Shown in pieces: positions 29,540 through 55,773 of a DNA stretch of 64,000 nucleotides. The notes under the pieces were generated by a model. That model searched no databases. It was not told the DNA's origin and saw only the letters and a program-made list of their open reading frames with translations. The stretch comes from an uncultured Eubacteriales bacterium. Lineage in GTDB: Bacteria > Bacillota > Clostridia > Peptostreptococcales > Anaerovoracaceae. Position 1 is the first letter of the stretch. Each line of letters starts with the position of its first letter. The position numbers and the translations under genes are program-made. Location of the stretch: assembly GCA_902763505.1 (NCBI GenBank), contig CACWSO010000008.1, positions 1 through 64,000 on the forward strand, in the 5' to 3' direction.

Positions 29540-30216
29540 ACAAATACGAATACGTCCGTCCGGCGGATATCGAAAAAGAAAGTATGCGCATTATTGAAGC
29601 GGAACTGAAAGAGCGGGGAATTGAGATTCCTGAGGAGAATATGACTGTGGTCAAAAGAGTCATACATACCTCAGCGGATTTTGATTACGGTACGAACCTG
29701 AAGTTCACAGACGGCGCAGTCAGACGCGTTGTGGAAGCACTCCGTGAAGGGGACTGTACCTTTATCACCGACACAAACATGGCTCTTTCGGGAATCAGCA
29801 AACCATCGCTGAAGAAGCTTTCGTCCCAGGCTCTTTGCTATATGGCGGATGAAGAAATCATGAAGCAGGCCAAGGAGCAAGGCACGACCAGAGCATATGC
29901 GTCCATGCGCCGCGGGGCTGCAGAGTATCCAAATGGTATCTTCGTTTCCGGTAATGCACCGACGGCGCTGATTGCTTTGTCGGAGATGATCCGCGAGGGG
30001 TTGAAGCCGACGCTGGTTATCGGTGTTCCGGTAGGATTTGTCAATGTGGTAGAGAGTAAGGAAGAGCTCTTCGAAATCTGTGAGGAGCATGATATACCGG
30101 CAATTGTTGCTTTTGGAAGAAAAGGCGGCAGCAATGTTGCAGCGTCGATCTGCAACGCGCTGCTGTATTCAGCCGTTGATATGGTGGACCCGATGAAGAG
30201 AGGATGGCAGAAATAA
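29536..30216 (+). CDS. cbiC: Cobalt-precorrin-8 methylmutase
   Basis: A 226-residue enzyme moving the methyl group from C-11 to C-12 to give cobyrinic acid. RVIHTSADFDYGTNLKFTDGAV contains the conserved active-site His. FVSGNAPTALIAL and VIGVPVGFVNVVESKE are the other signature stretches. The gene overlaps cbiP by four bases. Its TAA is shared with the ATG of the next gene. Confidence 0.96.
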   Translation: MNKYEYVRPADIEKESMRIIEAELKERGIEIPEENMTVVKRVIHTSADFDYGTNLKFTDGAVRRVVEALREGDCTFITDTNMALSGISKPSLKKLSSQALCYMADEEIMKQAKEQGTTRAYASMRRGAAEYPNGIFVSGNAPTALIALSEMIREGLKPTLVIGVPVGFVNVVESKEELFEICEEHDIPAIVAFGRKGGSNVAASICNALLYSAVDMVDPMKRGWQK

Positions 30217-31373
30217 TGAAGACTAGTTTCAAAAAACTTGCGGCGCTGGTACTGTCTGTCTGCATGCTGGTGCTGATGCTAGCAGGATGCGGCGGCGGTT
30301 CCGGCAGTGAAGCAGAAGAAACCGGCGCGCCCGATATCAGCGGACTGACCTATGAGTCAGAGATGGAACTTCAGAAAGCGACCGAATTCAACGTGTATCA
30401 TTATGAAGGGGGATACGATCTGATCGATATCCATGAGGGTGATCAGTTCCTCCTCGTTCCGGAAGGCGCCGAAGTACCGGAAAGTGTGCCGGAAGGAATT
30501 ATCGTTCTCCAGAAGCCAATCGACAAAATCTATCTGGCGGCGACGGCTACCATGGCCATGTTCTGCTCCTGCAATGCGTTGGATCACATCAGAATGTCGT
30601 CCATTAAGGAAAACGACTGGTCCTTCGACGAGCCGCGGGAAGCGATGGCGAGCGGAGACATCATCTACGCTGGCAAGTACAGCGCGCCGGATTATGAGAC
30701 GCTGTTTGATGAAGAGTGCGATCTGGCCATTGAATCCACCATGATCTACCACACGCCGGAGGTCAAGGAGATGATTGAGAAGCTGGACGTTCCGGTTCTG
30801 GTCGACCGGTCCAGTTATGAGGAAGATCCTTTGGGCAGAGCGGAGTGGATCAAACTCTACGGTGTACTGACGGATCATCAGGAGGATGCGGATGCCTTCT
30901 TCAACGAGCAGATGGAGAAACTGAAAGATCTGGATGATTTTGAAAATACAGAGAAAACTGTCGCGTTCTTCTATCTGACAGCAGACGGCAAAGTCGTCGT
31001 TCGCAAGAGCACAGACTATGTTCCAAAGATGATCGAAATTGCAGGCGCAAGATACGCATTCGCCGATCTGGAAGACGACAGCGATAGGACCTCCGTCGAT
31101 ATGTCCGTAGAGACATTTTATGAGACTGCGGTAGATGCTGATTACATCATCTATAACGGAAGCATCGACGGTTCTGTCAAGACCATGGACGATTTGCTGG
31201 CAAAGGATCCGATCATGAAGGAACTGAAGGCGGTAAAAGATAATAAATGCTGGGTAACAGGCGACTCTATGTATCAGAGAACCGATATCATTGCCGACAT
31301 GATCCTCGATTTCCACAAAGCATTCACAGAGGATGATCCATCAGATTTGAAATACATACAGAAACTGCAATAA
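30216..31373 (+). CDS. Substrate-binding lipoprotein of a FecCD/BtuCDF-type importer
   Basis: A 385-residue extracytoplasmic binding protein. The signal MKTSFKKLAALVLS ends in LAGC with the lipidated Cys at residue 25. The body has the two-lobed helical-backbone type seen in BtuF/FepB relatives (ADYIIYNGSIDGSVKTMDDLLAKDP). It lies at the end of the cbi genes and directly before a matching permease and ATPase. Cobalamin, cobinamide, a metal chelate or heme are all possible ligands. The start at 30216 (overlapping cbiC TAA) is preferred over 30204 because AGAGGA is then correctly spaced. Confidence 0.88.
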   Translation: MKTSFKKLAALVLSVCMLVLMLAGCGGGSGSEAEETGAPDISGLTYESEMELQKATEFNVYHYEGGYDLIDIHEGDQFLLVPEGAEVPESVPEGIIVLQKPIDKIYLAATATMAMFCSCNALDHIRMSSIKENDWSFDEPREAMASGDIIYAGKYSAPDYETLFDEECDLAIESTMIYHTPEVKEMIEKLDVPVLVDRSSYEEDPLGRAEWIKLYGVLTDHQEDADAFFNEQMEKLKDLDDFENTEKTVAFFYLTADGKVVVRKSTDYVPKMIEIAGARYAFADLEDDSDRTSVDMSVETFYETAVDADYIIYNGSIDGSVKTMDDLLAKDPIMKELKAVKDNKCWVTGDSMYQRTDIIADMILDFHKAFTEDDPSDLKYIQKLQ

Positions 31374-31397: not shown

Positions 31398-32492
31398 ATG
31401 AACGACAACAAAGGAAGAGAGACAAAAATAAATACGCAGGATCAGCCGACAGCTATCGGCGGATACCATGCAGAGAACTTCCGGCGCCGCACTAGATGTG
31501 TGATCGTTTTTGCGGTCATGATTGCTGCTTTCGCAGTGACGATCGTGATCAATATCAACTCGGGAAATGTGCACATAGGCGTCGGTGAAATCGCCAAGGC
31601 AATCTTCATGCGGGAGGGACCGGATAAGATTCTGGATATCATCTGGACGATCAGATTGCCGAGAATCATCGTTTCCATGCTCCTTGGTGGTGCATTGGCG
31701 CTGGCAGGTTTCCTGCTGCAGACATTCTTTGAGAATCCGATTGCAGGTCCATATGTACTCGGTATTTCATCAGGAGCTAAGATGGTGGTCGCAATCGCGA
31801 TGATTGTCTTCATGCAGAACGGTCTGCATGTTTCATCCGTGACATTGATCGCGGCAGCATTCATCGGCTCCCTGATTGCAACCATGTTCATCGTAGCCGT
31901 ATCCTTCCGGATACACAATATGGCGGCTCTTCTCGTCGCCGGAATCATGGTTGGTTACATCTGCAATGCGGTTACGGAATTCATCATCACCTTCGCCGAG
32001 GACTCAGATATTGCGAACCTCCATGTATGGTCTCAGGGAAGCTTCTCGGGCATGAGCTGGAGTAACGTTGCAGTCTGTCTGTTCGTCGTAGGCATCGGTT
32101 TCGTTCTGACCATGGTGATGAGCAAGCCGATCGGAGCGTTTCAGATGGGTGAGAACTACGCTGCAAGCATGGGCGTCAACATCAGATTGTTCAAGTTCGC
32201 ATTGATTACATTATCGAGTCTGCTCACAGCTTGCGTGACCGCCTTTGCAGGACCGATTTCCTTTGTCGGCATCGCCGTTCCATTCCTGATCAAGGGAGCG
32301 CTGGGAACTGCGAAACCTTTGGTGGTGATTCCGGGATGCATGCTGGGCGGCGGCGTGTTCTGTATGGTTTGCGACGTCATCGCAAGGCTTGCGTTCGCGC
32401 CGACAGAATTGAATATCAGTACCGTTACGGCGGTGTTCGGCGCACCGGTCGTTATTTACATGATGGTCAGAAGAAGGAGGCAGCGCTCATGA
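31398..32492 (+). CDS. FecCD/BtuC-family permease
   Basis: A 364-residue permease with about ten membrane segments. A hydrophilic N-terminus of some 35 residues is followed by IWTIRLPRIIVSMLLGGALALAGFLLQ, the family signature, then NPIAGPYVLGISSGA and, near the end, GPISFVGIAVPFLIKGALG. It should form the dimeric channel for the lipoprotein upstream. It overlaps the ATPase gene by ATGA. Confidence 0.93.
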   Translation: MNDNKGRETKINTQDQPTAIGGYHAENFRRRTRCVIVFAVMIAAFAVTIVININSGNVHIGVGEIAKAIFMREGPDKILDIIWTIRLPRIIVSMLLGGALALAGFLLQTFFENPIAGPYVLGISSGAKMVVAIAMIVFMQNGLHVSSVTLIAAAFIGSLIATMFIVAVSFRIHNMAALLVAGIMVGYICNAVTEFIITFAEDSDIANLHVWSQGSFSGMSWSNVAVCLFVVGIGFVLTMVMSKPIGAFQMGENYAASMGVNIRLFKFALITLSSLLTACVTAFAGPISFVGIAVPFLIKGALGTAKPLVVIPGCMLGGGVFCMVCDVIARLAFAPTELNISTVTAVFGAPVVIYMMVRRRRQRS

Positions 32493-33625
32493 GTAACAGA
32501 CGTGATGCCTACATCAGCATGGACAAGCTGGCCGTCGGATACAACGGCAAGGCAATTATAAAGGATATTTGTATCGATATCGGCAAGGGGGAAATCGTCA
32601 CATTGATTGGTCCGAACGGAGCCGGTAAATCGACGATTCTGAAGAGTATCACAAGACAGCTTTCACTGATCAGCGGTAAGGTCTGGTACGGTGAGAAGAA
32701 TCTTCATAAGATGACCGCGAAAGAAGTCTCAACAAAGATGGCGGTCGTTCTGACAGAGCGCCTGAAGGCGGAGCTCATGACCTGCTATGACATCGTTGCC
32801 AGCGGCAGATATCCGTACACAGGCAAGCTGGGACTTCTGACGGAAGAGGATGAGCGTATGGTCGACGAAGCGATGGCGGCGGTCAATGCGACAGAGTTCG
32901 GTCCGAAGGATTTCAACGCCATCAGTGACGGGCAAAAGCAGCGAGTTCTGCTCGCGAGAGCCATCTGTCAGGATCCTGAGATCATCATCCTGGATGAACC
33001 GACTTCCTTCCTGGATGTCAGGTACAAGCTGGAACTTCTGTCCATATTGCGGAACATGGCAAAGAAGAAGGGCATTACCGTCATCATGTCCCTCCATGAA
33101 ATAGACCTGGCGGAGAAGATTTCTGACAAGATCATCTGTGTCAAGGGAGATCATATCTATCGCTACGGAACGCCGGAAGAGGTGTTTGAAGAAGAGATGA
33201 TTCGTGATTTGTATTCCATCGACAATGGATTTTTCGATCCGCTTTTGGGAAGTATCGAGCTTCCGGCGCCGACGGGGGACACCGATGGTGAGGCAAATGC
33301 AGCAGAGCCGAAGGTGCTCGTCATTTCGGCTGGCGGCAGCGGCATCCCGGTGTACCGCAGACTGCAAAAGCAAAACATCCCATTCATAGCGGGCATTCTT
33401 TCTGAGAACGATATTGATTATCAACTGGCAAGACTTCTGGCGGCAGAAGTGATTACGACGCCGGCCTTCGAACCGATCAGTGAAGAAGCCTTTGCAAAGG
33501 CAATGGATGCGGTTGCACAATGCGACCGCGTAATCGACACAGACTTCCCAATTGGCTCGGCAAACAAGAGAATTGAGTTTCTGCTTCAGGCGGCGGATGA
33601 TGCCGGGAAGCTGGAACGAGTGTAA
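32489..33625 (+). CDS. FecE/BtuD-type ATPase with an extra C-terminal domain
   Basis: A 378-residue ATPase. Residues 1 to about 255 are a normal ABC domain: Walker A GPNGAGKST, signature ISDGQKQR (in place of LSGGQ), Walker B IIILDEP and the H-loop SLHEIDLA. Residues about 270-375 are an added domain starting KVLVISAGGSGIPVYRRL, followed by helices and CDRVIDTDFPIGSANKRIEFL. It looks like a Rossmann-type alpha/beta module. The extension is about 110 residues longer than ordinary FecE proteins and probably senses or regulates. A bidirectional terminator follows. Confidence 0.9.
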   Translation: MSNRRDAYISMDKLAVGYNGKAIIKDICIDIGKGEIVTLIGPNGAGKSTILKSITRQLSLISGKVWYGEKNLHKMTAKEVSTKMAVVLTERLKAELMTCYDIVASGRYPYTGKLGLLTEEDERMVDEAMAAVNATEFGPKDFNAISDGQKQRVLLARAICQDPEIIILDEPTSFLDVRYKLELLSILRNMAKKKGITVIMSLHEIDLAEKISDKIICVKGDHIYRYGTPEEVFEEEMIRDLYSIDNGFFDPLLGSIELPAPTGDTDGEANAAEPKVLVISAGGSGIPVYRRLQKQNIPFIAGILSENDIDYQLARLLAAEVITTPAFEPISEEAFAKAMDAVAQCDRVIDTDFPIGSANKRIEFLLQAADDAGKLERV

Positions 33626-33638
33626 TTAGTTTAAAATT

Positions 33639-33673
33639 AAAAGGACTTCACATCCATGTGAAGTCCTTTTTTG
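33639..33673. terminator. Bidirectional intrinsic terminator
   Basis: AAAAGGACTTCACA pairs with TGTGAAGTCCTTTT, a 14-bp stem around a four-base loop, with A- and T-runs on either side. It separates the convergent cbi operon and the minus-strand lipoprotein operon. Confidence 0.95.
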
Positions 33674-33684
33674 GATTCTGTTTT

Positions 33685-34521
33685 TTATTTTCCAAACAGA
33701 GTGAGCGTCAGGTCATATTCGATTTCGTGCGGTTCGCTCATGGCAGTCGTATCTGCGATGACTTTGAACGGTTCGTTCAGAACAGAAACCGGAATTTCGA
33801 AGATGGAGCCGACGCTTGATTCATCGTCCGCATTTGCCAGTTCTTCCTGGTTGACGGGTTCATATTTTTCACCGTCTACAATCATGTAATCATAGTGCGG
33901 GCTGTCCCATTTGACCGTCAGGGTGGCTGCGCCGTCTGCAACCGTCAGAGCAGCTGGGCTTTCGATTTCAGCCTTGCCGGTGCCGCCTTCCTTAGCGACT
34001 TCGACCTGATAGTCACCATCTTCCAGATCGATGGCAGTGCCTGCATGGACGTCATCGCCAGGAACTGGGTTTGAGACTTTGACTTTGTGGTCGTACCAGT
34101 TGTCGTGGGTGCCGATGAGTGCAACGTCGAATTCTTCGTCAAGAGCTGGTACAGGGATGTCGAATCCATAAACCTCTTCCACGTAGCCATCGCTGTATGT
34201 GACCTCATCAGTAGTCGGTTCGATCAGCTCTGCACCGTCCTTCTGGGCATCTTCTGCCAGACCGTAAAAAAGGTTTACTATTTTCTTCGACTGCAGGCTG
34301 ACATGAATCGTCATCTGGCCGTCCTTGACGGTCAGGATGCCTTTGTCGTTGTTTGCTTCGCTTACATGGAACATCGGGCTGTCCGTTGTGAACGTGGCAA
34401 CGTAAGTTCCGTCTGGGATTCCCGGATCCGCAGCTTCTTCGGAAGCGCCTGAACCGCATCCCGCAAGTGTGAAGGCTGTCATGATGAAAACAGCCAGTAT
34501 TGCTAATAGAGATTTCTTCAT
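33685..34521 (-). CDS. Lipoprotein with two NEAT-like domains
   Basis: A 278-residue lipoprotein (LAGC, lipidated Cys22). Domain 1 (about 35-150) starts IPDGTYVATF, has GILTVKDGQMTIHVSL and ends NWYDHKVKV. Domain 2 (about 160-276) starts LEDGDYQVEV, has SPAALTVADGAATLTVKW, HYDYMIVDGEKY, and VIADTTAMSEPHEIEYDL. The order DGxY, SPAxLxVxDGxxxLxV, then a terminal YDH-like strand is that of NEAT heme-binding domains, though the canonical Tyr pair is not intact. It follows the exported CbiK gene by 118 bases and is homologous to the protein at 39687. Heme, corrinoid or metal binding is inference. Confidence 0.75.
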   Translation of the reverse strand: MKKSLLAILAVFIMTAFTLAGCGSGASEEAADPGIPDGTYVATFTTDSPMFHVSEANNDKGILTVKDGQMTIHVSLQSKKIVNLFYGLAEDAQKDGAELIEPTTDEVTYSDGYVEEVYGFDIPVPALDEEFDVALIGTHDNWYDHKVKVSNPVPGDDVHAGTAIDLEDGDYQVEVAKEGGTGKAEIESPAALTVADGAATLTVKWDSPHYDYMIVDGEKYEPVNQEELANADDESSVGSIFEIPVSVLNEPFKVIADTTAMSEPHEIEYDLTLTLFGK

Positions 34522-34639
34522 TGTATTATCCTTGTGTTTTTAGGATCATGATCCTGAATACTGCAGGAGCGAGAACGAAAGATTCTTCGCACCCGCCCCT
34601 GAATAGTTTATTTATGAGTGCCTCTTAAGAGGTGATTCA

Positions 34640-35851
34640 TTATTTGATGACTGCACCAGTGTGCTCTACGTACATCTGCTGGATGTCAGCAATTCTACCA
34701 AGACCTTCGATCTGGCTGGTTACATTATCTGCACCGAATCCTTCGCCGATGTCAACTGGTTCGTCAGCGCCTTCTACTTCGAATTCACCGCCGTTTGCCA
34801 AAGCATCGCCCCAGTCGCCTGCCATGTCGTTGTTAGCGTGGTCGCCTGCAACTACCATCATCGGACGGAGAATGATCTTTGTGTAGCCCTTTTCTTCAAC
34901 AGCCTTCTTTACTTCCGGAAGTGCTGTGTCAGGAGGGTTTCCTTCAACGGTTCCTACGAATACGTTGTCATATCCGAGTTCGTCCATCTGAGTCTGCATC
35001 TGGTCATAGGTAACGTTTGCTTCGTGTGAAGTTCCGTGTCCCATGAATACGAGGGCAGTGCCGTCTTCCTTCATAGCGTCGAGTGAGTCATAGTCTGAAA
35101 CGGAAACTGCTTCTGCTACCATTGCTTCTGCAGCTCTCGTCTTGTCTTCGTTAATGACGGAAGCGTCTGCTCCGACTTCACCGAGGAGCGGCTCAGCGAT
35201 TTCTACAGATTCGAACTGATCTTCGTATTCTTTTACAGCGTCACACAGTTCGTCATACTCAGCACCATGCATCAGGTGCGTCGGCTGTACGACCAGATTC
35301 TTGACTCCGTTGGCAACTGCTCTGTCGAGAGCCTGCTGCATGTTGTCGATCTTCTCGCCGTCACGGGCCTGTACGTGGTTGATGATGATCTGAGCAGTGA
35401 ATGCTCTTCTGACTGACCAGTCAGGGTAAGCTTCCTGCAGAGCCTTTTCGATTCCACCGATATCGGTTGCTCTGCTGTCGTTGAATGACGTACCGAAGCT
35501 GACTACGAGCAGCTCGTTCTCGCCGATTTCATCGCCGTTGAGCGGATCGTCAGCGGAAGCGTCGCCTGTGTCGCGTCCGAAGTAATCGAATACATCCTCG
35601 TTCTCTTCCTTCTGCTCATCGGTCAGAGCGTCATATGCAGCCTTTGCAGCTTCGCACTGAGCGTCAGTCTCATCCGTTCTCTCCTGAACCTGGATGGCTT
35701 CGATCAGCGCCGCACATTCTGCTACCGGATCACCGGATGCTGCAGGTTCTTCTGAATCTCCTGATTCGCCGCAACCTGTGACCATCAGCATCATTCCCAG
35801 CGCCATAACCAGTGACAGCGCCAAAGCAATGAATTTTCTAAGATTTTTCAT
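34640..35851 (-). CDS. Exported, lipid-anchored CbiK-like chelatase
   Basis: A 403-residue lipoprotein: MKNLRKFIALALS, lipobox VTGC with Cys27. An acidic helical segment (about 30-105) precedes a full CbiK domain (about 115-400): LLVVSFGTSFNDSRA, VVQPTHL, VFMGHGTSHEAN, VFVGTVEGNPP and MMVVAGDHANNDMAGDW, which keep the two metal-binding His positions of sirohydrochlorin cobaltochelatase. The start at 35851 follows AAGGAGG; the upstream ATG at 35944 lies inside the riboswitch leader. It is the first gene after cobalamin riboswitch 3. An exported CbiK is known in Desulfovibrio; a Gram-positive lipoprotein form is unusual. Confidence 0.9.
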   Translation of the reverse strand: MKNLRKFIALALSLVMALGMMLMVTGCGESGDSEEPAASGDPVAECAALIEAIQVQERTDETDAQCEAAKAAYDALTDEQKEENEDVFDYFGRDTGDASADDPLNGDEIGENELLVVSFGTSFNDSRATDIGGIEKALQEAYPDWSVRRAFTAQIIINHVQARDGEKIDNMQQALDRAVANGVKNLVVQPTHLMHGAEYDELCDAVKEYEDQFESVEIAEPLLGEVGADASVINEDKTRAAEAMVAEAVSVSDYDSLDAMKEDGTALVFMGHGTSHEANVTYDQMQTQMDELGYDNVFVGTVEGNPPDTALPEVKKAVEEKGYTKIILRPMMVVAGDHANNDMAGDWGDALANGGEFEVEGADEPVDIGEGFGADNVTSQIEGLGRIADIQQMYVEHTGAVIK

Positions 35852-35870
35852 AACAAAAACCTCCTTAGAT

Positions 35871-35948
35871 AATAAAAATAACTTGATCCGAATACAAAGG
35901 CCTTCGCTAAACGGAGCAAAGACCTTCTGACAATTCGTGTTCAAGTTA
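35871..35948 (-). terminator. Long terminator hairpin of the riboswitch 3 platform
   Basis: On the minus strand, TAACTTGAac.cGAAT (35948-35933) pairs with ATTCGGATCAAGTTA (35893-35879). An inner stem, GGTCTTTGC with GCGAAGGCC, extends it, and a T-rich run follows. The ribosome binding site of the exported CbiK gene lies just after. Confidence 0.85.
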
Positions 35949-36018
35949 TGTCCAACTAGGTTGTTATGTTCCGCCAGTTACTCGTGGCCCGAAGCGTCAA
36001 CAAGCGCTTCGATGTAAA

Positions 36019-36180
36019 GACAGGCAGGTTTCCTGACTTACGGATCATTGCCTTGCCGCCGCCTTCCCAGGATTCCCCAGTGGCACAGTGGCGAAAAGCC
36101 ATCCGATTACAGTGACGAGTTCGCGCAGGAGTTACACCTGTTTCCCTATTATCTGAAGCCGAAACTTCAGCACCTGTCCA
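36019..36180 (-). promoter_or_regulatory. Cobalamin riboswitch 3 (upstream of exported CbiK)
   Basis: On the minus strand, closing stem GACAGG (36179-36174) with CCTGTC (36024-36019). Inside are AGGGAAACAGGTGTAACTCC, TCGTCACTGTAATCG, GCCACTG, GGGAAGGC and AAGTCAGGAAACCTGCC, all conserved blocks of the cobalamin aptamer. It is the most canonical of the three. It controls the two surface lipoproteins by the terminator at 35871. Confidence 0.95.
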
Positions 36181-36198
36181 ATATTTGTATTCGGCGGT

Positions 36199-36227
36199 AT
36201 TATAACATGAAAACAGGGGCATAGCAA
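36199..36227 (-). promoter_or_regulatory. Promoter of riboswitch 3
   Basis: On the minus strand, TTGCTA (36227-36222), 17-bp spacer, perfect TATAAT (36204-36199). Confidence 0.85.
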
Positions 36228-36304: not shown

Positions 36305-36497
36305 GCTATGTTGGCATATCGGAAGCCGGTGAGAACCCGGCACTGTGTCTCAGCAACCGTGACATCTACGAGGCGGACAGGTAACAAAGCATTACAGCCA
36401 CTGGGCAAACTGGGAAGGCGTCCGCTGAGGTTATAAGGATCAAGTCGGGAAACTGTCAGTAGCAATAGTCGTCTTCTGAGGTAGGACGATGTTTTTT
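36305..36497 (+). promoter_or_regulatory. Cobalamin riboswitch 2 (upstream of cbiL)
   Basis: Conserved blocks GGAAGCCGGTGAGAACCCGG, GTCTCAGCAACCGTGAC, GCCACTGGG, GGGAAGGCGTCC and CAAGTCGGGAAACTGTC. The platform is the hairpin CGTCTT-N7-AGGACG (36470-36488) followed by GATG and six T (36492-36497), a short intrinsic terminator. The element TCTTCTGAGGTAGGACG is shared with riboswitch 1, so the two are probably recent relatives, unlike riboswitch 3. Confidence 0.93.
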
Positions 36498-36527: not shown

Positions 36528-37226
36528 ATGGCAAAAGGTAAGGCATACGGCGTCGGCGTAGGTCCGGGAGACCCGAAACTGATGACCCTGAGAGCAGTAG
36601 AGCTCATCAAAGAAAATGATGTATTCTGTTTCCCTGGTAAAGAACCGAGGGAAACAGTCGCATATAAAATCGCTTGCGCGGCAGTACCGGAATTGGCGGA
36701 GAAGGAACTGATTCCGATCTATATGCCGATGAAGATGGATAAGGATGAGATCCGCAGACAGCACAAGGCAGGCGCGGAGATCATGGAGAAGTATCTGGAT
36801 GAGGGTAAGAACGTCGTATATCTGACACTGGGTGATTCTACCGTGTACTGCACCTTCACCTATCTGCAGGCGATTATAGAGGAAGACGGCTACGAGACAG
36901 AGTTGGTACCGGGCATCACATCCTTCTGCGCAGCGGCAGCCAGAGTAGGCATTCCGCTCTGCGAGTGGAACGAGCCTTTGCATGTCATGCCGGCGCTCCA
37001 CAAACTCGGTGACGACCTGAGCCTGCCGGGCAACTATGTGTTGATGAAGTCCGGCAGCCATATGGCTGAGGTCAAAGAGATCCTGAGAAAGAGCGGCAGA
37101 GATGTGAACGTGGTTGAGAACTGTGGCATGCCGAATGAGAAGGTCTACAGAGGCGTAGACGAAATCCCGGATGAGGCAGGATATTTCTCTCTGATTATCG
37201 CGAAGGAAGACGCAAGAGATCTGTAA
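36528..37226 (+). CDS. cbiL: Cobalt-precorrin-2 C20-methyltransferase
   Basis: A 232-residue tetrapyrrole methylase acting on C-20. It opens KAYGVGVGPGDPKLMTLRAVELI and has VYLTLGDSTVYCTFTYLQ and VPGITSFCAAAARVGIPL, the CbiL/CobI signatures, with LMKSGSHMAEVKEIL later. It is the first gene after riboswitch 2, start preceded by GTGAGGAATAG. It opens a second cobalamin/tetrapyrrole operon, separated from the main cbi operon by the lipoprotein genes. Confidence 0.95.
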   Translation: MAKGKAYGVGVGPGDPKLMTLRAVELIKENDVFCFPGKEPRETVAYKIACAAVPELAEKELIPIYMPMKMDKDEIRRQHKAGAEIMEKYLDEGKNVVYLTLGDSTVYCTFTYLQAIIEEDGYETELVPGITSFCAAAARVGIPLCEWNEPLHVMPALHKLGDDLSLPGNYVLMKSGSHMAEVKEILRKSGRDVNVVENCGMPNEKVYRGVDEIPDEAGYFSLIIAKEDARDL

Positions 37227-37254: not shown

Positions 37255-38097
37255 ATGATCGAATTACAGAATATCACAAAAAAATTCGGTGACTTCACAG
37301 CAGTGGATCACCTGAACATGACGATTGAAACAGGGGAGTTCTTCGGACTGCTTGGGCCGAACGGCGCCGGCAAGACGACGACCATCAGCATGCTCTCTAC
37401 TGTTTTGCTGCCTACGGAGGGGCAGATCTTCATCGACGGCAAAAAGCTGGACAGAAAAGCGTCCGCCGAGAAGAGCAAGCTGAGCGTCATCACCCAGGAG
37501 TTCTCCATGCGTCAGGATATGACTATCGATGAGGTCATGGAGTATCAAGGCAGACTCTACTACCTGCCGAAGAAAGTGATCCGGCAGAAGAGCGATGAAC
37601 TGTTGGAGTTTGCGGGACTGCTCGATTACCGACACAGAGTCGTGCGCCATCTTTCCGGCGGCATGAAGCGCAAGCTCATGATCTGCAGAGCCCTGATGAC
37701 GGAGCCGCAGATTTTGCTGCTCGATGAACCGACGGCGGGAATGGACGCCATCTCAAGACGCCAGATGTGGAATCTGCTGAGACAGCTCCACGGCGAAGGC
37801 ATCACGATTCTCCTGACGACACATTACATTGAAGAAGCACAGTCCCTCTGTGAGCGCGTGGCGCTGATCAACAGAGGACAGCTGAACACCATAGACACAC
37901 CGGACAATCTGATCAATGAGCTTGGACGGTACGCGGTGGATGAGACGGCGGATGAAACACTCCACTCCTCATACTACCCGACCAGAGAGGAAGCCATTGA
38001 GTATCTCAGAAGCTCCGATAAGGAAGCATCCCTGAGAAACACGACCCTGGAAGACGTCTTCGTCTACAGAATCGGCAGAGGATTGGAACAGAAGTAA
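37255..38097 (+). CDS. ABC-2-type exporter ATPase
   Basis: A 280-residue ATPase of the DrrA/CcmA type, with Walker A GPNGAGKTT, signature LSGGMKRKL, Walker B LLLDEPTAGMD and a C-terminal extension (about 220-280) with YYPTREEAIEYLRS. The permease gene follows after 24 bases. Such pairs usually export drugs, lipids or peptides, or insert membrane components. The cargo is unknown. Its place between cbiL and cbiK under a B12 riboswitch suggests a tetrapyrrole- or metal-linked substrate. Confidence 0.9.
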   Translation: MIELQNITKKFGDFTAVDHLNMTIETGEFFGLLGPNGAGKTTTISMLSTVLLPTEGQIFIDGKKLDRKASAEKSKLSVITQEFSMRQDMTIDEVMEYQGRLYYLPKKVIRQKSDELLEFAGLLDYRHRVVRHLSGGMKRKLMICRALMTEPQILLLDEPTAGMDAISRRQMWNLLRQLHGEGITILLTTHYIEEAQSLCERVALINRGQLNTIDTPDNLINELGRYAVDETADETLHSSYYPTREEAIEYLRSSDKEASLRNTTLEDVFVYRIGRGLEQK

Positions 38098-38121: not shown

Positions 38122-38853
38122 ATGGGAATCATTGCAGTTTTATGGGAAAAGTGGAGAGAGTTCCGAAGGGACTTCTATAAGATCACATTAGCGGCCACAA
38201 TCACACCGCTGATGTATCTTATCGTGTTCGGACTCGGCATCCAGACCACCTCCCATGGTGAGCCGTACCTGAACTTTCTGGTGCCCGGCATCGTCGCCAT
38301 GTCCACCATGACAGGCAGCTTCAGCGCCGTCGCACAGAACATGAGTGTGCAGAGGCTCTACGAGAAAGCCCTCGACCAGGTTATGGTTTCACCGACTCCG
38401 TTGTGGCAGTTTATCCTGGGACAGGTCATCGGCGGAAGTCTCAGGGGAATGTACGCAGCCGGCATCATCATGTTGATCACACTGCCGATTGCTGCGGATC
38501 TGACTTTCAACGGATGGTCCTTCCTCGTGATGTTCCTGAACGGACTGGTCTTCTCAACGATCGCACTCGTGCTGTCGTTCCTGGCAAAGAGTTATACAGA
38601 TGCGCCGCGTTTCACATCATACATCATCATGCCGATGTCGTTTTTGTGCAATACGTTCTTCTCGACCGATCAGATGCCGATGGGTATCCGTCAGGTCGTA
38701 GAGCTGCTGCCGCTTTCACAGGCATGCGAGATGATCAGAAGCGTATCGGCCGGAGGGTCGACGGGCGTATTTGGCTGGATCGTGCTGCTGGTGTATCTGG
38801 CAGTATTCTCAGCGATTTCTGTTGCTTTTGTATATAAGAAAAAGAATTTGTAG
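38122..38853 (+). CDS. ABC-2-type exporter permease
   Basis: A 243-residue membrane protein of the ABC-2/NodJ-DrrB family with about six segments. ATITPLMYLIVFGLGI near the start, FLVPGIVAMSTMTGSFSAVAQN and LPLSQACEMIRSV are typical. It should dimerise with the ATPase upstream. The stop is two bases before the ATG of cbiK, so the genes are translationally coupled. Confidence 0.9.
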   Translation: MGIIAVLWEKWREFRRDFYKITLAATITPLMYLIVFGLGIQTTSHGEPYLNFLVPGIVAMSTMTGSFSAVAQNMSVQRLYEKALDQVMVSPTPLWQFILGQVIGGSLRGMYAAGIIMLITLPIAADLTFNGWSFLVMFLNGLVFSTIALVLSFLAKSYTDAPRFTSYIIMPMSFLCNTFFSTDQMPMGIRQVVELLPLSQACEMIRSVSAGGSTGVFGWIVLLVYLAVFSAISVAFVYKKKNL

Positions 38854-39686: not shown

Positions 39687-40805
39687 ATGGCAGAAAACAG
39701 AAGGCAAAATTCCATAGGGAAGATGATCGCAGTCGTATTATTCGCTGCGCTTCTTGCCGTGTCAGTTACGGTATTCTGTCCTGACGATATACATGCGGCC
39801 GAAGGGTACGACCAGGTTGCCGGCAGCTCTGAGATGGCAGAGATGAAGGATGTCGGCAAGTACGGTATGACGCCGATCTACGGGGCCAGTATCAAAAACG
39901 GCGAGTACGAAGTGAAAGCTGAAAGCAGCTCCAGTTTCTTCAGCATTTATTCCTGCAATCTGACCGTCAAGGGGAACAAGATGAAGGCCGTGTTGACCAT
40001 TGACAGCACCAGCTATGAGTGCGTGTATATGGGCAAGGCGAAAGACGCTGCAAAGGCACCAAAGGACGACTACATCTTCGCCGATGAGAAGGACTACAGA
40101 GGCAGCTTCACCATACCGATTGAAGCATTGAACGCGCCGATTGCATGCGCTGCCTTCAGCAAAAAGGAAAAGCAGTGGTACGACAGAAACATACTGATCG
40201 ATGCAGCCAGCCTGCCGGAGGGCGCACTGAAAATTGAGCTTCCCGATTACAACCTGATCGACAAGGCGGTCGAGCAGTATGATGAAAATAAAGACGGCGG
40301 AAGCGCAGCCAATAAGGATGCTGCTGAAAACAATCAGCAGAACAGTTTTAACGCGCTGATTCCTGCGGCAGTCAAAATGGAGGACGACACCTATTCCATC
40401 GAAGTGAATATGATCGGCGGTTCCGGAAGGGCATCCGTCAGCTCACCGACGTGGTTCATCGTCAAAGACGGCAAGGCATATGCAAGGCTGCTGTGGAGCA
40501 GTTCCCATTATGATTATATGAAAATAAGCGGAATCAAATACGAGAATGAATCGACGGATGGAGGCAACTCCACGTTCACTATCCCAGTTGCTGTATTCGA
40601 CCAGCCGATTCGTGTGATCGCAGATACAACGGCTATGGGTGATCCTGTAGAGATAGAATATGAGCTGACTTTTTATAAAGACACAATCAATTCAGTAACG
40701 AAAGTACCGCAGGAAGCGGCGAAGAGGGTCATTTACATCGCCCTGATCATCATCATCGTGGGCGGCGTACTGAATCTGGTTCTGAAGAGGAGGAAAAAAC
40801 AGTGA
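39687..40805 (+). CDS. Membrane-anchored protein with two NEAT-like domains
   Basis: A 372-residue surface protein. A signal or anchor segment (about 12-32) precedes domain 1 (about 60-170: IKNGEYEVKAE, CNLTVKGNKMKAVLTI, FTIPIEAL, QWYDRNI). A lysine/asparagine/alanine-rich linker leads to domain 2 (about 225-335: MEDDTYSIEVNMIGGSGRA, SPTWFIVKDGKAYARLLW, HYDYMKISGIKY, VIADTTAMGDPVEIEYEL). A C-terminal membrane segment (YIALIIIIVGGVLNLVL) with KRRKKQ holds it. It shares both domains with the lipoprotein at 33685. It sits between cbiK and sirC, so I infer tetrapyrrole or metal handling outside the membrane. Confidence 0.75.
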   Translation: MAENRRQNSIGKMIAVVLFAALLAVSVTVFCPDDIHAAEGYDQVAGSSEMAEMKDVGKYGMTPIYGASIKNGEYEVKAESSSSFFSIYSCNLTVKGNKMKAVLTIDSTSYECVYMGKAKDAAKAPKDDYIFADEKDYRGSFTIPIEALNAPIACAAFSKKEKQWYDRNILIDAASLPEGALKIELPDYNLIDKAVEQYDENKDGGSAANKDAAENNQQNSFNALIPAAVKMEDDTYSIEVNMIGGSGRASVSSPTWFIVKDGKAYARLLWSSSHYDYMKISGIKYENESTDGGNSTFTIPVAVFDQPIRVIADTTAMGDPVEIEYELTFYKDTINSVTKVPQEAAKRVIYIALIIIIVGGVLNLVLKRRKKQ

Positions 40806-41284
40806 CAGACAAACAAGAAGCAAACAAGAAATATTTCCCGCTTTTTTTGGACCTGAATGACAAAGACATTCTCTTTGTTGGAGGAGGAGCCATCGCATCC
40901 AGAAGAATCCATGCACTGGAGCCTTTTGCGGACAGGATCACAGTGGTGGCGCCTGAAGCGGACGGCAGCATCCTCGAACTGACGGAAGCAGGAGAGGTCA
41001 GCTGGATCATGCGTGAGTTTGAAGAAGAGGATCTCGAGGGACGCGATATTGTCTTTGCAGCGACGAATGATAAAGAGCTGAATGCGGATATCGCTGTGGC
41101 CTGCAGGGAAAGGGGTATCACTGTCAACGTGTCCAGCGACAAGAATCTCTGCGATTTTTATTTCCCGGGAATCGTCATGCAGGGTGAGACGATTATCGGT
41201 GTCAGCGCATCTGGGAAAGATCATAAAAAAGCACGCAGAGTGCGTGAACGCATACAGGAAGTTCTGACGGAGGAAGGCATATGA
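40802..41284 (+). CDS. Precorrin-2 dehydrogenase (siroheme synthase N-terminal type)
   Basis: A 160-residue NAD-dependent enzyme oxidising precorrin-2 to sirohydrochlorin, the substrate of CbiK. It opens PLFLDLNDKDILFVGGGAIASRRI, a Rossmann start, and has FAATNDKELNADIAVACRERGI and CDFYFPGIVMQGETIIGVSASG. It lacks the C-terminal ferrochelatase half of MET8-type enzymes. GTG start overlapping the previous stop (GTGA), and ATGA overlap with hemC. Confidence 0.93.
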   Translation: MTDKQEANKKYFPLFLDLNDKDILFVGGGAIASRRIHALEPFADRITVVAPEADGSILELTEAGEVSWIMREFEEEDLEGRDIVFAATNDKELNADIAVACRERGITVNVSSDKNLCDFYFPGIVMQGETIIGVSASGKDHKKARRVRERIQEVLTEEGI

Positions 41285-42156
41285 AACCGGTAAGAATCGG
41301 AACAAGAGAAAGTGTACTCGCAGTAATCCAAAGCGAGATGGTCGGACAGTATCTTACGGAGAAGGGGATAAAATACGAGCTCGTCACCATGAAGACGACG
41401 GGTGATAAGATCCTCAACAAGACGCTGGACAAGATCGGCGGCAAGGGACTCTTTGTTAAGGAACTGGACCACGCTCTGATCGATGGACGCAGCGATATTT
41501 CCGTTCACTCCCTGAAGGATCTGCCGATGGAAGTGCCGGAGGAACTCCCGGTCATCGCTTTTTCGAAGCGGGAAGACCCAAGAGATGTGCTGGTGTTGCC
41601 AGAGGGCGCTGAGGAAATCGATTTCAGCAAACCGATTGGAAGTTCCAGCTTCCGCAGACGAATCCAGATCGAAAAGCTCTATCCGCAGGCAAGGGTGGAG
41701 AGCGTCAGAGGAAACGTGCAGACACGCCTCAGAAAACTGGATGAAGGACAGTACGGTGCCCTGGTGCTGGCTGCGGCGGGACTGATTCGTCTCGGTCTGG
41801 AGGATAGGATTTACAAATACTTCGAACCTGCAGAGATTCTGCCGGCGGCAGGACAAGGCGTCCTGGCGGTGCAGGGAAGAGAAGGAGAAGACTACAGCTG
41901 GGCTGCAGGATACAACGATATCAAAACCGAGCGTGAAGTATTGGCGGAGAGAGCCTTCGTCAGATGGCTCGATGGAGGATGCTCATCGCCGATTGCTGCC
42001 TTTGCAGTATGCGGTGAGGATGAGCTGACGATAGAAGGACTCTACTACGATGACGCCACGGGAAAATGGCACAGAGAGTCCGCCAGCGGTGCTCCGGACA
42101 AAGCAGAAGAGCTGGGCATTGCATTGGCAAAGACAATGAAAGGGCGGTACGAATGA
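41281..42156 (+). CDS. hemC: Hydroxymethylbilane synthase
   Basis: A 291-residue enzyme polymerising four porphobilinogen units. It opens PVRIGTRESVLAVIQSEMV, has KDLPMEVPEELPV, SSFRRRIQIEKLYP and VRGNVQTRLRKLDEG, and LDGGCSSPIAAFA near the end with the Cys that carries the dipyrromethane cofactor. It overlaps sirC and cobA-hemD by four bases each. Confidence 0.97.
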   Translation: MKPVRIGTRESVLAVIQSEMVGQYLTEKGIKYELVTMKTTGDKILNKTLDKIGGKGLFVKELDHALIDGRSDISVHSLKDLPMEVPEELPVIAFSKREDPRDVLVLPEGAEEIDFSKPIGSSSFRRRIQIEKLYPQARVESVRGNVQTRLRKLDEGQYGALVLAAAGLIRLGLEDRIYKYFEPAEILPAAGQGVLAVQGREGEDYSWAAGYNDIKTEREVLAERAFVRWLDGGCSSPIAAFAVCGEDELTIEGLYYDDATGKWHRESASGAPDKAEELGIALAKTMKGRYE

Positions 42157-43655
42157 AGACAGGAAAGGTATGGCTGGTAGGTGCAGGCCCTGGAGACATC
42201 GGACTGCTCACAGTCAAGGCAACAGAAATCATAAAGGAAGCAGACGTGATCGTCTATGACGCACTGATTGGGGATTCGCTGTTTTCGCTGTTCCCAAAGA
42301 GTGTGGAATGCATCAGCGTCGGCAAACGCTCCGGAAATCACACGATGCCGCAGGAGCAGATCGATAAGGTATTGCTCGAGGAGGCGCTCAAAGGCAAGAA
42401 AGTGGTCCGCCTGAAGGGCGGCGATCCGTTCCTGTTTGGAAGAGGCGGAGAAGAGTTGGAGCTTCTGGCGGAGAACGACGTTCCTTACGAAGTGGTGCCG
42501 GGCATCACATCACCGATCGCGGTGCCTGCTTACAACGGCATTCCGGTCACCCACAGAGACTTCACCTCATCGCTGCATATCATCACCGGGCACAAGAGAA
42601 AAGGCTCCGCTGAGGATATCGATTACGGGGCGCTGGTCCGCACGGAAGGGACGCTGGTGTTCCTCATGGGCATTGCGAGACTGCCGTTCATCTGCGGCGG
42701 ACTTCTGGAAGCGGGCATGGATCCGGATATGCCGGCAGCGGTACTCCAGCAGGGAACGACGGCAGGACAGAAGCGTGTCGTTGCAACCGTCGGCACATTA
42801 GAAGAAGAGGTAAAGCGCCAGGGCGTGGAGACACCGGCCATCATCATTGTAGGCAAGGTCTGCAGTCTGGCTGACGCCTTCGCATGGTATGAGAAACTGC
42901 CGTTGGCGGGAAGCCGCGTGATCGTCACACGTCCGCGGGGAATGATATCAGGAATGGCGTCGCGGCTCAGAAAGCTCGGTGCGGAAGTGCTGGAGTTGCC
43001 GTCCATCGAGACCGTGGCCAGAGAAGATCAGAGCGGGCTTGAAGCGGCTCTGGATGAAATGGCATCCTACAGCTGGATCGTATTCACCAGCCCGACAGGC
43101 GTCAGAGTGTTCTTCGATGTGCTGAAGAAAACAGGCAGAGATGTACGGTCTCTGGCAGGCGTCAAAATTGCAGCCATTGGAACCGGAACGAAAAAAGAAT
43201 TGTCGGACAGAAATATCATTGTTGATTTTGTACCTTCGGTATATGATGGGGAAACATTGGGACGAGAGCTTTCAAAGCTTGTGGGAAGTGAAGACCGCAT
43301 TCTGATACCGAGAGCTGCACTGGGAAATCATGAATTGGTTGCAGCGCTGGAAGCGGCAGGTGCAGAAATCACAGATGTTCCGACCTATGATACGATCGAT
43401 GTGAGCCAGGATCTCGTCGATGAGAAGAAGCTCTTTGAGGAAGATAAAATCGACTGTGCTGTATTCACCAGCGCGTCGACGGTGAGGGGATTTGTCAGCA
43501 GAAATCCGGGACTGGATTTCAGCCTCGTGCGGGCAGCCTGCATCGGGAAACAGACAAAACACGCAGCAGAAGCCTGCGGTATGAATGCATATATGTCAGA
43601 AGAGGCGACGATGGACAGTCTCGCCCAGCTGGTTATCTCAATGAAAGGAAGATAG
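42153..43655 (+). CDS. cobA-hemD: Uroporphyrinogen-III C-methyltransferase / uroporphyrinogen-III synthase fusion
   Basis: A 500-residue bifunctional enzyme. The SUMT half (about 1-245) opens VWLVGAGPGDIGLLTVKATEII and has RLKGGDPFLFGRGGEE and VPGITSPIAVPAYNGIPVTHR. The HemD half (about 252-500) opens LAGSRVIVTRPRGMISGMASRLRKLGAEV and has WIVFTSPTGVRVFFD and VFTSASTVRGF. It cyclises hydroxymethylbilane and methylates C-2 and C-7 to give precorrin-2. Start at 42153 overlaps hemC. Confidence 0.96.
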   Translation: MKTGKVWLVGAGPGDIGLLTVKATEIIKEADVIVYDALIGDSLFSLFPKSVECISVGKRSGNHTMPQEQIDKVLLEEALKGKKVVRLKGGDPFLFGRGGEELELLAENDVPYEVVPGITSPIAVPAYNGIPVTHRDFTSSLHIITGHKRKGSAEDIDYGALVRTEGTLVFLMGIARLPFICGGLLEAGMDPDMPAAVLQQGTTAGQKRVVATVGTLEEEVKRQGVETPAIIIVGKVCSLADAFAWYEKLPLAGSRVIVTRPRGMISGMASRLRKLGAEVLELPSIETVAREDQSGLEAALDEMASYSWIVFTSPTGVRVFFDVLKKTGRDVRSLAGVKIAAIGTGTKKELSDRNIIVDFVPSVYDGETLGRELSKLVGSEDRILIPRAALGNHELVAALEAAGAEITDVPTYDTIDVSQDLVDEKKLFEEDKIDCAVFTSASTVRGFVSRNPGLDFSLVRAACIGKQTKHAAEACGMNAYMSEEATMDSLAQLVISMKGR

Positions 43656-43659
43656 AAAG

Positions 43660-44643
43660 ATGGAAATGAAAGTAAGACCAAGAAGATTACGTACAACAGA
43701 AGCCATGAGAAAGATGGTAAGGGAGACTAGACTGGACAAGTCGACGCTGATTTATCCGATCTTTGCCATCGACGGAACAGGCATCAAGGAAGAAATCCCG
43801 TCCATGCCGGGGCAGTACCGCTACAGTGTGGACCAGCTCCCGTATGCCCTTGAAGAAGCGGCAAATCTGGGCGTCAACAACATTCTCATGTTCGGCATTC
43901 CGGAGCACAAGGATGAATGCGGCAGCCAGGCCTACGCCCACGACGGCATCGTGCAGAGAGCACTGAGAGAAGGCAAGAAGGAATTCCCTGACATGCTTTT
44001 CATTGCCGATGTCTGCATGTGCGAGTACACTTCACACGGACACTGCGGCATTCTCGACGGTGAGTATGTAGATAATGATAAGACGCTGAAGATGCTGGCA
44101 CAGATCGCAAGCTCCCAGGCAGAAGCAGGAGCTGATATCGTTGCACCGTCCGACATGATGGACGGACATGTTGCTGCGATCCGTGAGAAGCTGGATGAAG
44201 ACGGATTCATCAATACGCCAATCATGTCCTATGCTGTCAAGTTTGCTTCAGCTTTCTATGGACCATTCCGTGACGCGGCAGATTCCGCGCCGCACTTCGG
44301 TGACAGAAAGAGCTATCAGATGGACTACCACAACGGCAGAGAAGCGATGAAGGAAGCGCTCCTCGACGTGGAGGAAGGAACAGACTTCCTGATCGTCAAA
44401 CCTGCAATGGCATTCTATGATCTGCTGGAGAGAGTGGTAAGCGCAACGAACATTCCAATCGCAACTTACAGCGTCAGCGGCGAGTACTCCATGGTCAAGG
44501 CCGCAGCGCAGAACGGCTGGATCGACGAAGAGAGAATCATCGGTGAAATGGCTGTAGGCGCATACCGCGCAGGCGCCGGCATGTACATTACATACTTCGC
44601 GAAGGAACTGGCGAAGATGATCGACGAAGGAAAGATCGGCTAG
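43660..44643 (+). CDS. hemB: Delta-aminolevulinic acid dehydratase
   Basis: A 327-residue porphobilinogen synthase. It keeps the zinc-binding Cys-rich stretch DVCMCEYTSHGHCG and both active-site Lys segments, YAVKFASAFYGPFRDA and LIVKPAMAFYDLL. It begins four bases after cobA-hemD. Genes for making aminolevulinate itself (hemA, hemL) are not in the window. Confidence 0.97.
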   Translation: MEMKVRPRRLRTTEAMRKMVRETRLDKSTLIYPIFAIDGTGIKEEIPSMPGQYRYSVDQLPYALEEAANLGVNNILMFGIPEHKDECGSQAYAHDGIVQRALREGKKEFPDMLFIADVCMCEYTSHGHCGILDGEYVDNDKTLKMLAQIASSQAEAGADIVAPSDMMDGHVAAIREKLDEDGFINTPIMSYAVKFASAFYGPFRDAADSAPHFGDRKSYQMDYHNGREAMKEALLDVEEGTDFLIVKPAMAFYDLLERVVSATNIPIATYSVSGEYSMVKAAAQNGWIDEERIIGEMAVGAYRAGAGMYITYFAKELAKMIDEGKIG

Positions 44644-49308: not shown

Positions 49309-49361
49309 GCATTTCTAGAATAGGGGCAGGAAAGAATAGTTTGCAAAGAGGTGAAGGGAAA

Positions 49362-54997: not shown

Positions 54998-55014
54998 GGC
55001 GGTCGGATTGCAAG

Positions 55015-55773
55015 ATGAAAAGACGAAAGAAACGAATAGCCGGACTGCTTACAGCAGTGGTTTTGATTCTCATGGCCGATTTGCTGGTGTTCTACTTTGC
55101 AGGGATTCCCAAGCTAGATCATGCAGTCATGCAAAAGGCTTGGAGAGGGCTTGATCTCCGAAACAAGTATCTGGAAAACACAGATATGGTCGGCTGGCTT
55201 CAGGTAGAAGGGACAGAAATCAATTATCCTGTCATGCGCGGAGAACGTTATCTGCACAGAAATTTCAAAAAAGAAAGAGATGTATCCGGCAGTCTGTTTG
55301 TAGAGAACGATTGGAGCAATGAAGACATATGCACATTGATCTATGGTCATAACATGTGGATGTATGGGACAATGCTGAACCCACTGCATCGATTTACTGA
55401 ACAGGACTTCTTCCAAAATAACAGAAGCATTCAATACTATGCCTTGCTTGACAGTGGACACAGAGCGGAAAAACGCACGTACGAAATCATATGCTGTATC
55501 AGAACCAGCGTTGACGAGTGGAATTATGCCAGTTGCCAGTATATCTGTTCAAGTAAAGATCTGAACACATTTTTGGATGAATGCAGGAGCAGAGCGCTTC
55601 TGAAAACAGATACTGTCTTTGAAGCAGGTGAAGCGATTGTTTTGTCCACATGTTCATATCACGTAAGAGGCGGTAAGGGAAGGCTGCTTCTTGTCGGCAG
55701 CCTGACAAGCAGAACTGACCAGAATAGGATTGACGTGCAACAGAGAACGGATAAAAGTGCGGCAAAAAACTGA
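55015..55773 (+). CDS. Class B sortase
   Basis: A 252-residue transpeptidase with an N-terminal membrane segment (about 8-28). LIYGHNMWMYGTML holds His112, VLSTCSYHVRGGKGRLLLVG holds Cys213 and the likely catalytic Arg223. It should attach the VPQTG protein two genes upstream to the cell wall. It begins 17 bases after the NlpC-like gene. The three genes form one operon. Confidence 0.93.
   Translation: MKRRKKRIAGLLTAVVLILMADLLVFYFAGIPKLDHAVMQKAWRGLDLRNKYLENTDMVGWLQVEGTEINYPVMRGERYLHRNFKKERDVSGSLFVENDWSNEDICTLIYGHNMWMYGTMLNPLHRFTEQDFFQNNRSIQYYALLDSGHRAEKRTYEIICCIRTSVDEWNYASCQYICSSKDLNTFLDECRSRALLKTDTVFEAGEAIVLSTCSYHVRGGKGRLLLVGSLTSRTDQNRIDVQQRTDKSAAKN

Follow-up and report, generated by a model that had tools for sequence, protein, structure and literature searches.

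A predicted surface CbiK lipoprotein and its NEAT-like partner under cobalamin riboswitch control suggest a possible route of B12 synthesis using extracellular cobalt and tetrapyrrole

The DNA examined here, which we call the window, is a stretch of 64,000 nt from an uncultured Eubacteriales bacterium of the family Anaerovoracaceae (GCA_902763505.1, contig CACWSO010000008.1, positions 1 to 64,000). It carries an operon, headed by a cobalamin riboswitch, for two predicted lipoproteins, one of the chelatase family CbiK and the other with two domains (D1 and D2) resembling NEAT domains. B12 precursors are generally considered to receive their cobalt in the cytoplasm; the occurrence of the same exported pair in many relatives suggests that B12 may be made there with both the metal and the ring gathered externally. 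In the reading that we prefer, which is possible if somewhat short of probable, this surface system would load cobalt into a captured tetrapyrrole and supply the Cbi pathway, its activity being a prediction. At the cell surface, the exported CbiK would bind a sirohydrochlorin-type tetrapyrrole along with Co2+ and carry out the metal insertion, the NEAT-like lipoprotein would capture the tetrapyrrole and hand it over to CbiK, and a BtuFCD-like ATP-binding cassette (ABC) transporter would import the cobalt-tetrapyrrole, which CbiL would take onward in the corrin pathway inside the cell. Where the exported enzyme is the only CbiK, cobalt and ring would enter solely by this surface route; the window organism would have it as an additional means of salvage. 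At the level of sequence, this is supported by the export signals, the active-site motifs, the NEAT-like fold, the riboswitch, the fusions and gene neighborhoods, and the co-occurrence patterns described below, and from these we infer the ligand, the metal, the direction of the reaction, the hand-over, and the import. Exported CbiK has known precedents, and the function proposed for the module can be tested.

The exported CbiK matched the Pfam CbiK family at 1e-63 (215.5 bits, cut-off 26.2) and scored 158 bits with the NCBIfam model SiroCoChCbiK, under that model's cut-off of 400. Its best match among solved structures was FetB of Porphyromonas gingivalis (9b86, 1.2e-29), the other nearest solved relatives being Salmonella CbiK and the periplasmic CbiK-P of Desulfovibrio. 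Alignment with 1qgo, 2xvx, and 9b86 showed that the active-site motifs MGHGTSH (His272) and AGDHANND (His338) are retained, and signal-like N-termini with lipoboxes (LAGC at Cys22 of the NEAT-like protein and VTGC at Cys27 of CbiK) were recognized by pattern in the two operon lipoproteins. This agrees with the initial annotation, in which the chelatase was a lipoprotein with both His-containing motifs kept and a cytoplasmic CbiK was encoded 3 kb away; the latter gene indeed lies at a distance of 3.0 kb, and the two CbiK proteins share 39% identity over 259 aligned residues. The fold was assessed on a naturally fused homologue, CbiK-D1-D2 of locus L104, and not on the window protein: the L104 model (predicted local distance difference test [pLDDT] 87, predicted template modeling score [pTM] 0.61) matched the CbiK structures 1qgo, 2xvz, and 9b86 (template modeling [TM] scores of 0.92, 0.90, and 0.87 of the target, respectively) as well as tandem NEAT structures.

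In a tree of 74 CbiK sequences, 40 of them exported, the exported CbiK of the window fell inside a supported clade of exported CbiKs (25 rows, support 100/99) that spans several families and two Spirochaetes. The export label required at least six changes on this tree. Recent duplication of the neighboring cbiK was ruled out as an origin, the exported protein being far from the cytoplasmic CbiK of the window in the tree. Lipoprotein CbiKs also occurred outside the main clade, at L157 (genome G404) and L161 (G136), with no NEAT-like neighbor in the stretch examined, and CbiK export therefore appears to have multiple origins; despite this position, both genomes were counted as exported. Double forms were seen as well, with two CbiK domains in one 1595-aa exported protein of G102 (L051:6483–11270) and in a 598-aa lipoprotein of G046 (L053:11932–13728).

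The operon partner is NEAT-like by predicted fold and not a member of the Pfam NEAT family (PF05031), with which it scored 24.6 bits, under the cut-off of 32.8. When cut out separately, D1 and D2 of the window gave no Pfam NEAT match at E ≤ 0.01, a threshold passed by 5 of 22 D1 relatives and 13 of 32 D2 relatives. Sequence profiles compared with solved structures yielded a weak match of D1 to an IsdX2 domain (E = 0.19) and no NEAT for D2, and an hhalign comparison with five Clostridial NEATs was uninformative. The structure prediction of the lipoprotein (pLDDT 83, pTM 0.51) nevertheless recovered the NEAT fold that had been proposed for its two domains: all 13 Foldseek matches with E ≤ 1e-3 were NEAT structures (best, 5e-7), and single-domain targets gave TM scores of up to 0.70. 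D1 and D2 are homologous to each other (hhalign, 96%, E = 1.4e-9). In the D2 profile, Tyr occupied one position in 100 of 101 rows and His stood four residues before it in 90 of 101, these counts being drawn from an iterated profile; the alignments A3 and A4 were chosen by patterns holding the conserved motifs, and their invariance is partly by construction. Heme-binding NEATs carry Tyr-x3-Tyr, from which the His-x3-Tyr of the D2 profile would differ. NEAT hemophores (Isd proteins and Hbp2) thus share the fold and the tandem two-domain architecture with the window partner, but the latter has a lipobox in place of a sortase signal, B12 in place of iron control, and a Pfam score below the cut-off.

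Both ORFs of the operon are intact, that of CbiK starting with ATG at 35851, and their cotranscription may be inferred from the gap of 118 nt between them and from the program's terminator list, which shows no minus-strand terminator. The canonical cobalamin riboswitch annotated ahead of them scored 114.4 bits with the RF00174 covariance model (gathering score 31.5). The 168-nt leader that follows folds more stably than all 200 shuffled sequences (z = −4.38) and is likely a translational expression platform, making it a candidate switch; within it, positions 35849–35968 of the minus strand form a strong predicted fold in which the ribosome-binding site (RBS) and AUG pair with an upstream strand. 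The promoter-like site next to the riboswitch is no evidence of function, since the consensus scan found 6 such sites where 3.0 were expected. A hairpin between the converging operons, absent from the terminator list, is a probable terminator common to both.

The partnership proved to be widespread. A scan of named genomes gave at least 593 confirmed relatives, and the 80 best of them were retained as loci; these came from Lachnospiraceae, Faecalibacterium, Gemmiger, Eubacterium ramulus, Pseudoflavonifractor, Mogibacterium, two Spirochaetes, and others. Their export signals were assigned by rule in 69 cases and by eye in 7, with three cut by a contig start and L067 left unresolved. The NEAT-like domain was fused to CbiK in 24 of the 80 loci and started within 500 nt of it in 49 more, and in total 76 had it fused or within 3 kb, so that the neighborhood survey bears out the link between the two proteins suggested initially. 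Among the other four, L065 and L123 stop at a contig edge just after CbiK, and L081 and L118 are truly without the domain. BtuF and BtuC homologues were encoded downstream within 7 kb in 54 of the 73 loci having at least 3 kb of downstream sequence, 41 of the 80 contained a second cbiK or a gene of the cbi, cob, or hem type, and a cobalamin riboswitch lay upstream of all 17 loci in the subset tested for it. No NEAT-like ORF was found in the short flanks of 26 control loci with cytosolic cbiK, unlike in the window's own clade, where an anchored NEAT-like protein follows the cytosolic cbiK.

Two further samples were analyzed, one of 119 genomes of the family (33 with CbiD and 21 with exported CbiK) and one of 293 genomes of the class (89 and 17, respectively). 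Export signals were recognized from sequence patterns and by visual inspection (in the family, 18 lipoboxes and 3 other signals); in the class sample, CbiK-type matches occurred in 64 genomes, of which 41 were inspected and the remaining 23, whose matches were mostly split or weak, were classed as lacking export. In the family, NEAT-like genes follow exported cbiK in 18 of the 19 loci uncut by a contig end, the exception being G036, and the riboswitch upstream was at or above the gathering score in 18 of 21 genomes, below it in 2, and absent in G036. In the class, a D1-type domain was present in 14 of the 17 genomes with exported CbiK versus 2 of the 276 others.

Exported CbiK was tied to the corrin pathway: it was found in 21 of 33 CbiD-positive versus 0 of 86 CbiD-negative family genomes, and in 17 of 89 versus 0 of 204 in the class, where three of the 204 (G146, G243, and G301, among the 23 taken as not exported) have weak unchecked matches. 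This bears on two other explanations. In the first, the system would strip heme or metalloporphyrins for iron, the NEAT-like domains binding heme and the exported CbiK removing its iron. The fold resembles heme-binding NEAT structures, and the nearest solved relative is FetB/IhtB, for which such iron removal from heme has been proposed (PMC10913741). This explanation was lowered from first choice because of the B12 riboswitch control and the tie to CbiD, exported CbiK not having been found in the CbiD-negative genomes above; the Pfam NEAT score below the cut-off and the lack of a close solved NEAT sequence also argue against it, and we regard it as quite improbable. In the second, the NEAT-like proteins would supply BtuFCD with captured B12 or cobinamide, with repair or exchange of the metal left to the CbiK domain. 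The linkage to BtuFCD-like genes and the riboswitch speaks for it, but in the genomes that would need such capture most, B12-dependent and without ring synthesis, no exported CbiK was found (the same CbiD-negative sets, with the three weak unchecked matches), and exchange of cobalt out of corrins is not known to occur. The chance of this explanation therefore seems slim.

The distribution of cobalt importers was likewise uneven. Canonical CbiM, defined as a frame of up to 310 aa scoring above 165 bits (a 105-bit match in G389 was thus excluded; five canonical and nine long or weak examples were read, and 7 and 8 of these were scanned), was present in none of the 21 family genomes with exported CbiK versus 9 of the 12 other cbiD genomes (Fisher, 6e-6) and in 1 of 17 (G367) versus 56 of 72 class genomes (Fisher, 5e-8; 7e-7 without the window's own family), although these values overstate independence because the genomes are related. 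NicO was found in 0 of 35 genomes with exported CbiK. The exchange of one system for the other is seen again within a single genus, g172: G205 and G333 have exported CbiK without CbiM, the CbiM-model match in G205 being a mere 21 bits and below the cut-off, and G249 has cytoplasmic CbiK and CbiM. The CbiMNQO cobalt energy-coupling factor transporter probably shares its role with the module, as a cobalt entry in B12 makers under B12 riboswitch control; its proteins are unrelated to CbiK-NEAT, and the two rarely stand in one genome. This near-exclusion, the NEAT-like partner, and the CbiK-NEAT fusions appear to be new. Together with the corrin-gene tie and the B12 riboswitch, the near-exclusion favors loading or import for B12 over heme stripping; of the options first proposed (capturing, loading, or stripping metal), loading, or import of cobalt or tetrapyrrole for B12, is thus favored and the stripping of heme for iron disfavored. 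With surface cobalt loading, one explanation would cover the external chelatase, a partner from a class of ring-binding proteins, regulation by a B12 riboswitch, the link with corrin genes, and the lack of a cobalt importer.

In 11 of the 21 family genomes with exported CbiK (G003, G018, G019, G021, G032, G036, G072, G093, G102, G103, and G108), the exported protein was the sole CbiK-model match at E ≤ 1e-3, two of these genomes being merely 78–80% complete. For G072, 1.83 of the 1.92 Mb of contigs 1–37 were read (95%). In this part, one class II chelatase was found, the exported CbiK, which is adjoined by two NEAT-like genes, BtuFCD, and the corrin genes cbiL, D, F, G, H, J-ET, C, P, B, and cobD. 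Searches of the same 95% revealed no hemB, hemC, or sirC, although each of these three queries recovered at least 12 other ORFs in other loci, and the cobA-hemD query matched solely cbi methyltransferases. No CobN was present among 16 ORFs of 1160–1408 aa. Across the family loci, hemC and sirC stood near cytosolic CbiK in 7 of 8 cases, versus 1 of 21 (the window) for hemC and 5 of 21 for sirC near exported CbiK. G072 provides a strong lead, but as a single genome it does not establish a rule. As far as it was read, it fits the tetrapyrrole precursor salvagers of Shelton et al. (2018), which have corrin genes without early ring genes and numbered 201 genomes, mostly Firmicutes, and 180 species after manual search (PMC6461909); the parts of that paper at hand name neither an uptake system nor an extracellular chelatase. 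The window organism, which has hemB, hemC, and cobA-hemD, is not of this type.

Several observations weigh against surface loading. The window genome has ring synthesis and a cytoplasmic CbiK, so a surface route is not obligatory there. Eight of the 80 loci have ring genes next to the exported pair, and at L072 (9004–17096) exported CbiK, a NEAT-like gene, and cbiL-sirC-hemC-cobA/hemD-hemB form one run, with no other CbiK in its 19 kb; because of these loci, both the loading reading and the bolder form given below are rated slightly lower. About 5% of contigs 1–37 of G072, the single exported-only genome read nearly whole, is unread, and since hem genes cluster, one gap might hide them; a long gene split by a piece end may also have been missed. 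Besides the relatedness of the genomes mentioned above, the CbiM pattern is blunted by G367, which carries the module plus canonical CbiM, by long CbiM-type proteins of unsure metal (NikMN type) in 7 of the 21 family genomes, and by 16 CbiD-positive class genomes with neither module nor CbiM, so that absence of CbiM alone proves little. All four long proteins scanned have a PDGLE domain, and two of the four exceeded the cut-off of the NCBIfam model "cobalt transporter CbiM". Finally, the reaction reported for FetB, the closest solved relative, is manganese insertion into protoporphyrin, giving Mn-porphyrin (review PMC13402209). As a separate observation, the organism of L072 is ring-making and yet seemingly keeps its chelatase outside.

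The main rival is acquisition of cobalt alone, in which the CbiK domain and the NEAT-like protein would act as a surface cobalt trap and carrier for BtuFCD, with the ring made and the metal inserted inside. It fits the co-occurrence with CbiD, the near-exclusion of CbiM, and the absence of NicO equally well, and it would suffice for the window organism, with its cytoplasmic CbiK, and for L072, with ring genes in the gene run of the exported pair. Moreover, CbiK-P of D. vulgaris binds Co2+ through a histidine (PMC4063343), and delta-proteobacteria with cbiK and without a known cobalt transporter have been described (Rodionov 2004, PMC545781). On the other hand, an intact chelatase active site would be a costly metal trap, exported-only CbiK is found in the 11 family genomes listed above, and in the 95% of G072 that was read no other class II chelatase, hemB, hemC, or sirC was found. 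We consider cobalt capture alone unlikely on balance and retain surface loading as the preferred reading.

A lipid-anchored CbiK, initially considered to belong to an undescribed system, has in fact a precedent in FetB/IhtB of P. gingivalis, a CbiK-homologous putative heme-binding lipoprotein encoded with the IhtC-E binding protein, permease, and ATPase of an ABC transporter (PMC10913741). The window has the same combination, an exported CbiK lipoprotein with a FecCD-family ABC transporter as converging neighbor. The IhtABCDE system differs in being Gram-negative and having a TonB-dependent receptor, which is not expected in a Gram-positive-type envelope; in the parts of the sources available, no NEAT-like partner is mentioned, and the system is published as one for heme/iron or Mn-porphyrin. 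P. gingivalis is without the steps to precorrin-2, and a functional corrin pathway is named in the title of a work cited there (PMC6461909). The second precedent is CbiK-P of D. vulgaris, exported like that of the window and known from the structures 2xvx and 2xvz. The cbiK gene of Desulfovibrio that is controlled by a B12-element presumably encodes this protein. In Desulfovibrio, cbiK-cbiL and btuCDF are under the control of one such element, and homologues of known cobalt transporters were not detected (PMC545781). The available accounts describe CbiK-P as periplasmic and mention no lipid anchor, NEAT-like partner, or fusion. Among open-licence PMC papers, none was found that joins CbiK with NEAT domains, NEAT with corrinoid or cobalamin, or CbiK with lipoprotein, riboswitch, and cobalt uptake.

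If surface loading is true, cobalt would be inserted outside the cell in common gut genera (Faecalibacterium, Gemmiger, Eubacterium, and Lachnospiraceae), and the module offers a new reading of FetB/IhtB. A bolder form, rather unlikely when all its parts are taken together, can also be stated. Many gut anaerobes would build B12 around a captured ring, through NEAT-like capture, insertion by CbiK outside, and BtuFCD-like import, and could dispense with a cobalt importer as well as with a cobaltochelatase in the cytoplasm. FetB/IhtB and Desulfovibrio CbiK-P would be Gram-negative forms of this route, which would also be the missing uptake system of the precursor salvagers. In ring-making clades such as those of the window and L072, the cell's own sirohydrochlorin would be sent out as a "cobaltophore" and retaken when loaded; in the window clade, the genes of a putative ABC-2 exporter separate cbiL from cbiK, and L072 has ring genes after the exported pair.

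Table 1. Features of the lipoprotein operon and its neighbors in the window
Feature	Position	Strand	Remarks
CbiK-family lipoprotein, 403 aa	34640–35851	−	signal + lipobox 1–27, linker, CbiK domain ~113–402
Lipoprotein with two NEAT-like domains, 278 aa	33685–34521	−	D1 ~36–155, D2 ~165–277
Cobalamin riboswitch of the lipoprotein operon	36006–36192	−	RF00174
Promoter-like site TTGCTA-17-TATAAT, TG before −10	36199–36227	−	consensus scan
Leader from riboswitch to start codon	35838–36005	−	RBS and AUG paired in predicted fold
Hairpin with T tracts between converging operons	33640–33673	.	read by eye
BtuFCD-like substrate-binding lipoprotein (Peripla_BP_2)	30204–31373	+	end of cbi operon
FecCD/BtuC-like permease	31398–32492	+	no NCBIfam model above cut-off
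BtuD-like ATPase	32231–33625	+	no NCBIfam model above cut-off among best matches listed
Second, divergent cobalamin riboswitch before cbiL	36321–36453	+	45.5 bits, model positions 47–167
cbiL (cobI/cbiL equivalog)	36528–37226	+	TIGR01467 above cut-off
ABC-2 type transporter	37255–38097 (ATPase), 38122–38853 (membrane protein)	+	between cbiL and cbiK
Cytoplasmic CbiK, 260 aa	38856–39638	+	without signal sequence
Second protein with two NEAT-like domains	39687–40805	+	signal-like N-terminus, C-terminal hydrophobic anchor
Endogenous sirohydrochlorin synthesis	40802–44643	+	sirC-like 40802, hemC 41281, cobA-hemD 42066, hemB 43660

The operon sits within a cobalamin cluster bounded by a riboswitch (18.4 kb) and hemB (44.6 kb), back to back with the cbiL operon on one side and converging on the BtuFCD-like transporter on the other (Table 1). 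Within the window, cbiD, cbiF, cbiH, cbiE, cbiL, cbiP, hemB, hemC, and cobA passed their NCBIfam cut-offs and cbiC did not; further genes are taken to be cbiG, cbiJ, cbiB, cobD, hemD, and sirC, the sirC-like protein at 40802 giving a NAD_binding_7 match. The substrate-binding lipoprotein of the transporter had no solved relative at E ≤ 0.001, and the true start of the BtuD-like ATPase is probably near 32486. The second NEAT-like protein, directly after cytoplasmic cbiK, was absent from the initial annotation. The ABC-2 pair may possibly export a tetrapyrrole. Its position between cbiL and cytoplasmic cbiK is repeated in the clade relatives L053, L066, L067, L073, and L129, and at L047 the pair lies between cbiL and an anchored NEAT-like gene. 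Elsewhere in the window, a separate surface-protein locus (49341–55773) encodes a large surface protein in which T-Q ester bond and SpaA domains were recognized, another protein containing Ig-like and List-Bact repeats, and a sortase-like protein scoring 24.6 bits, just below the cut-off.

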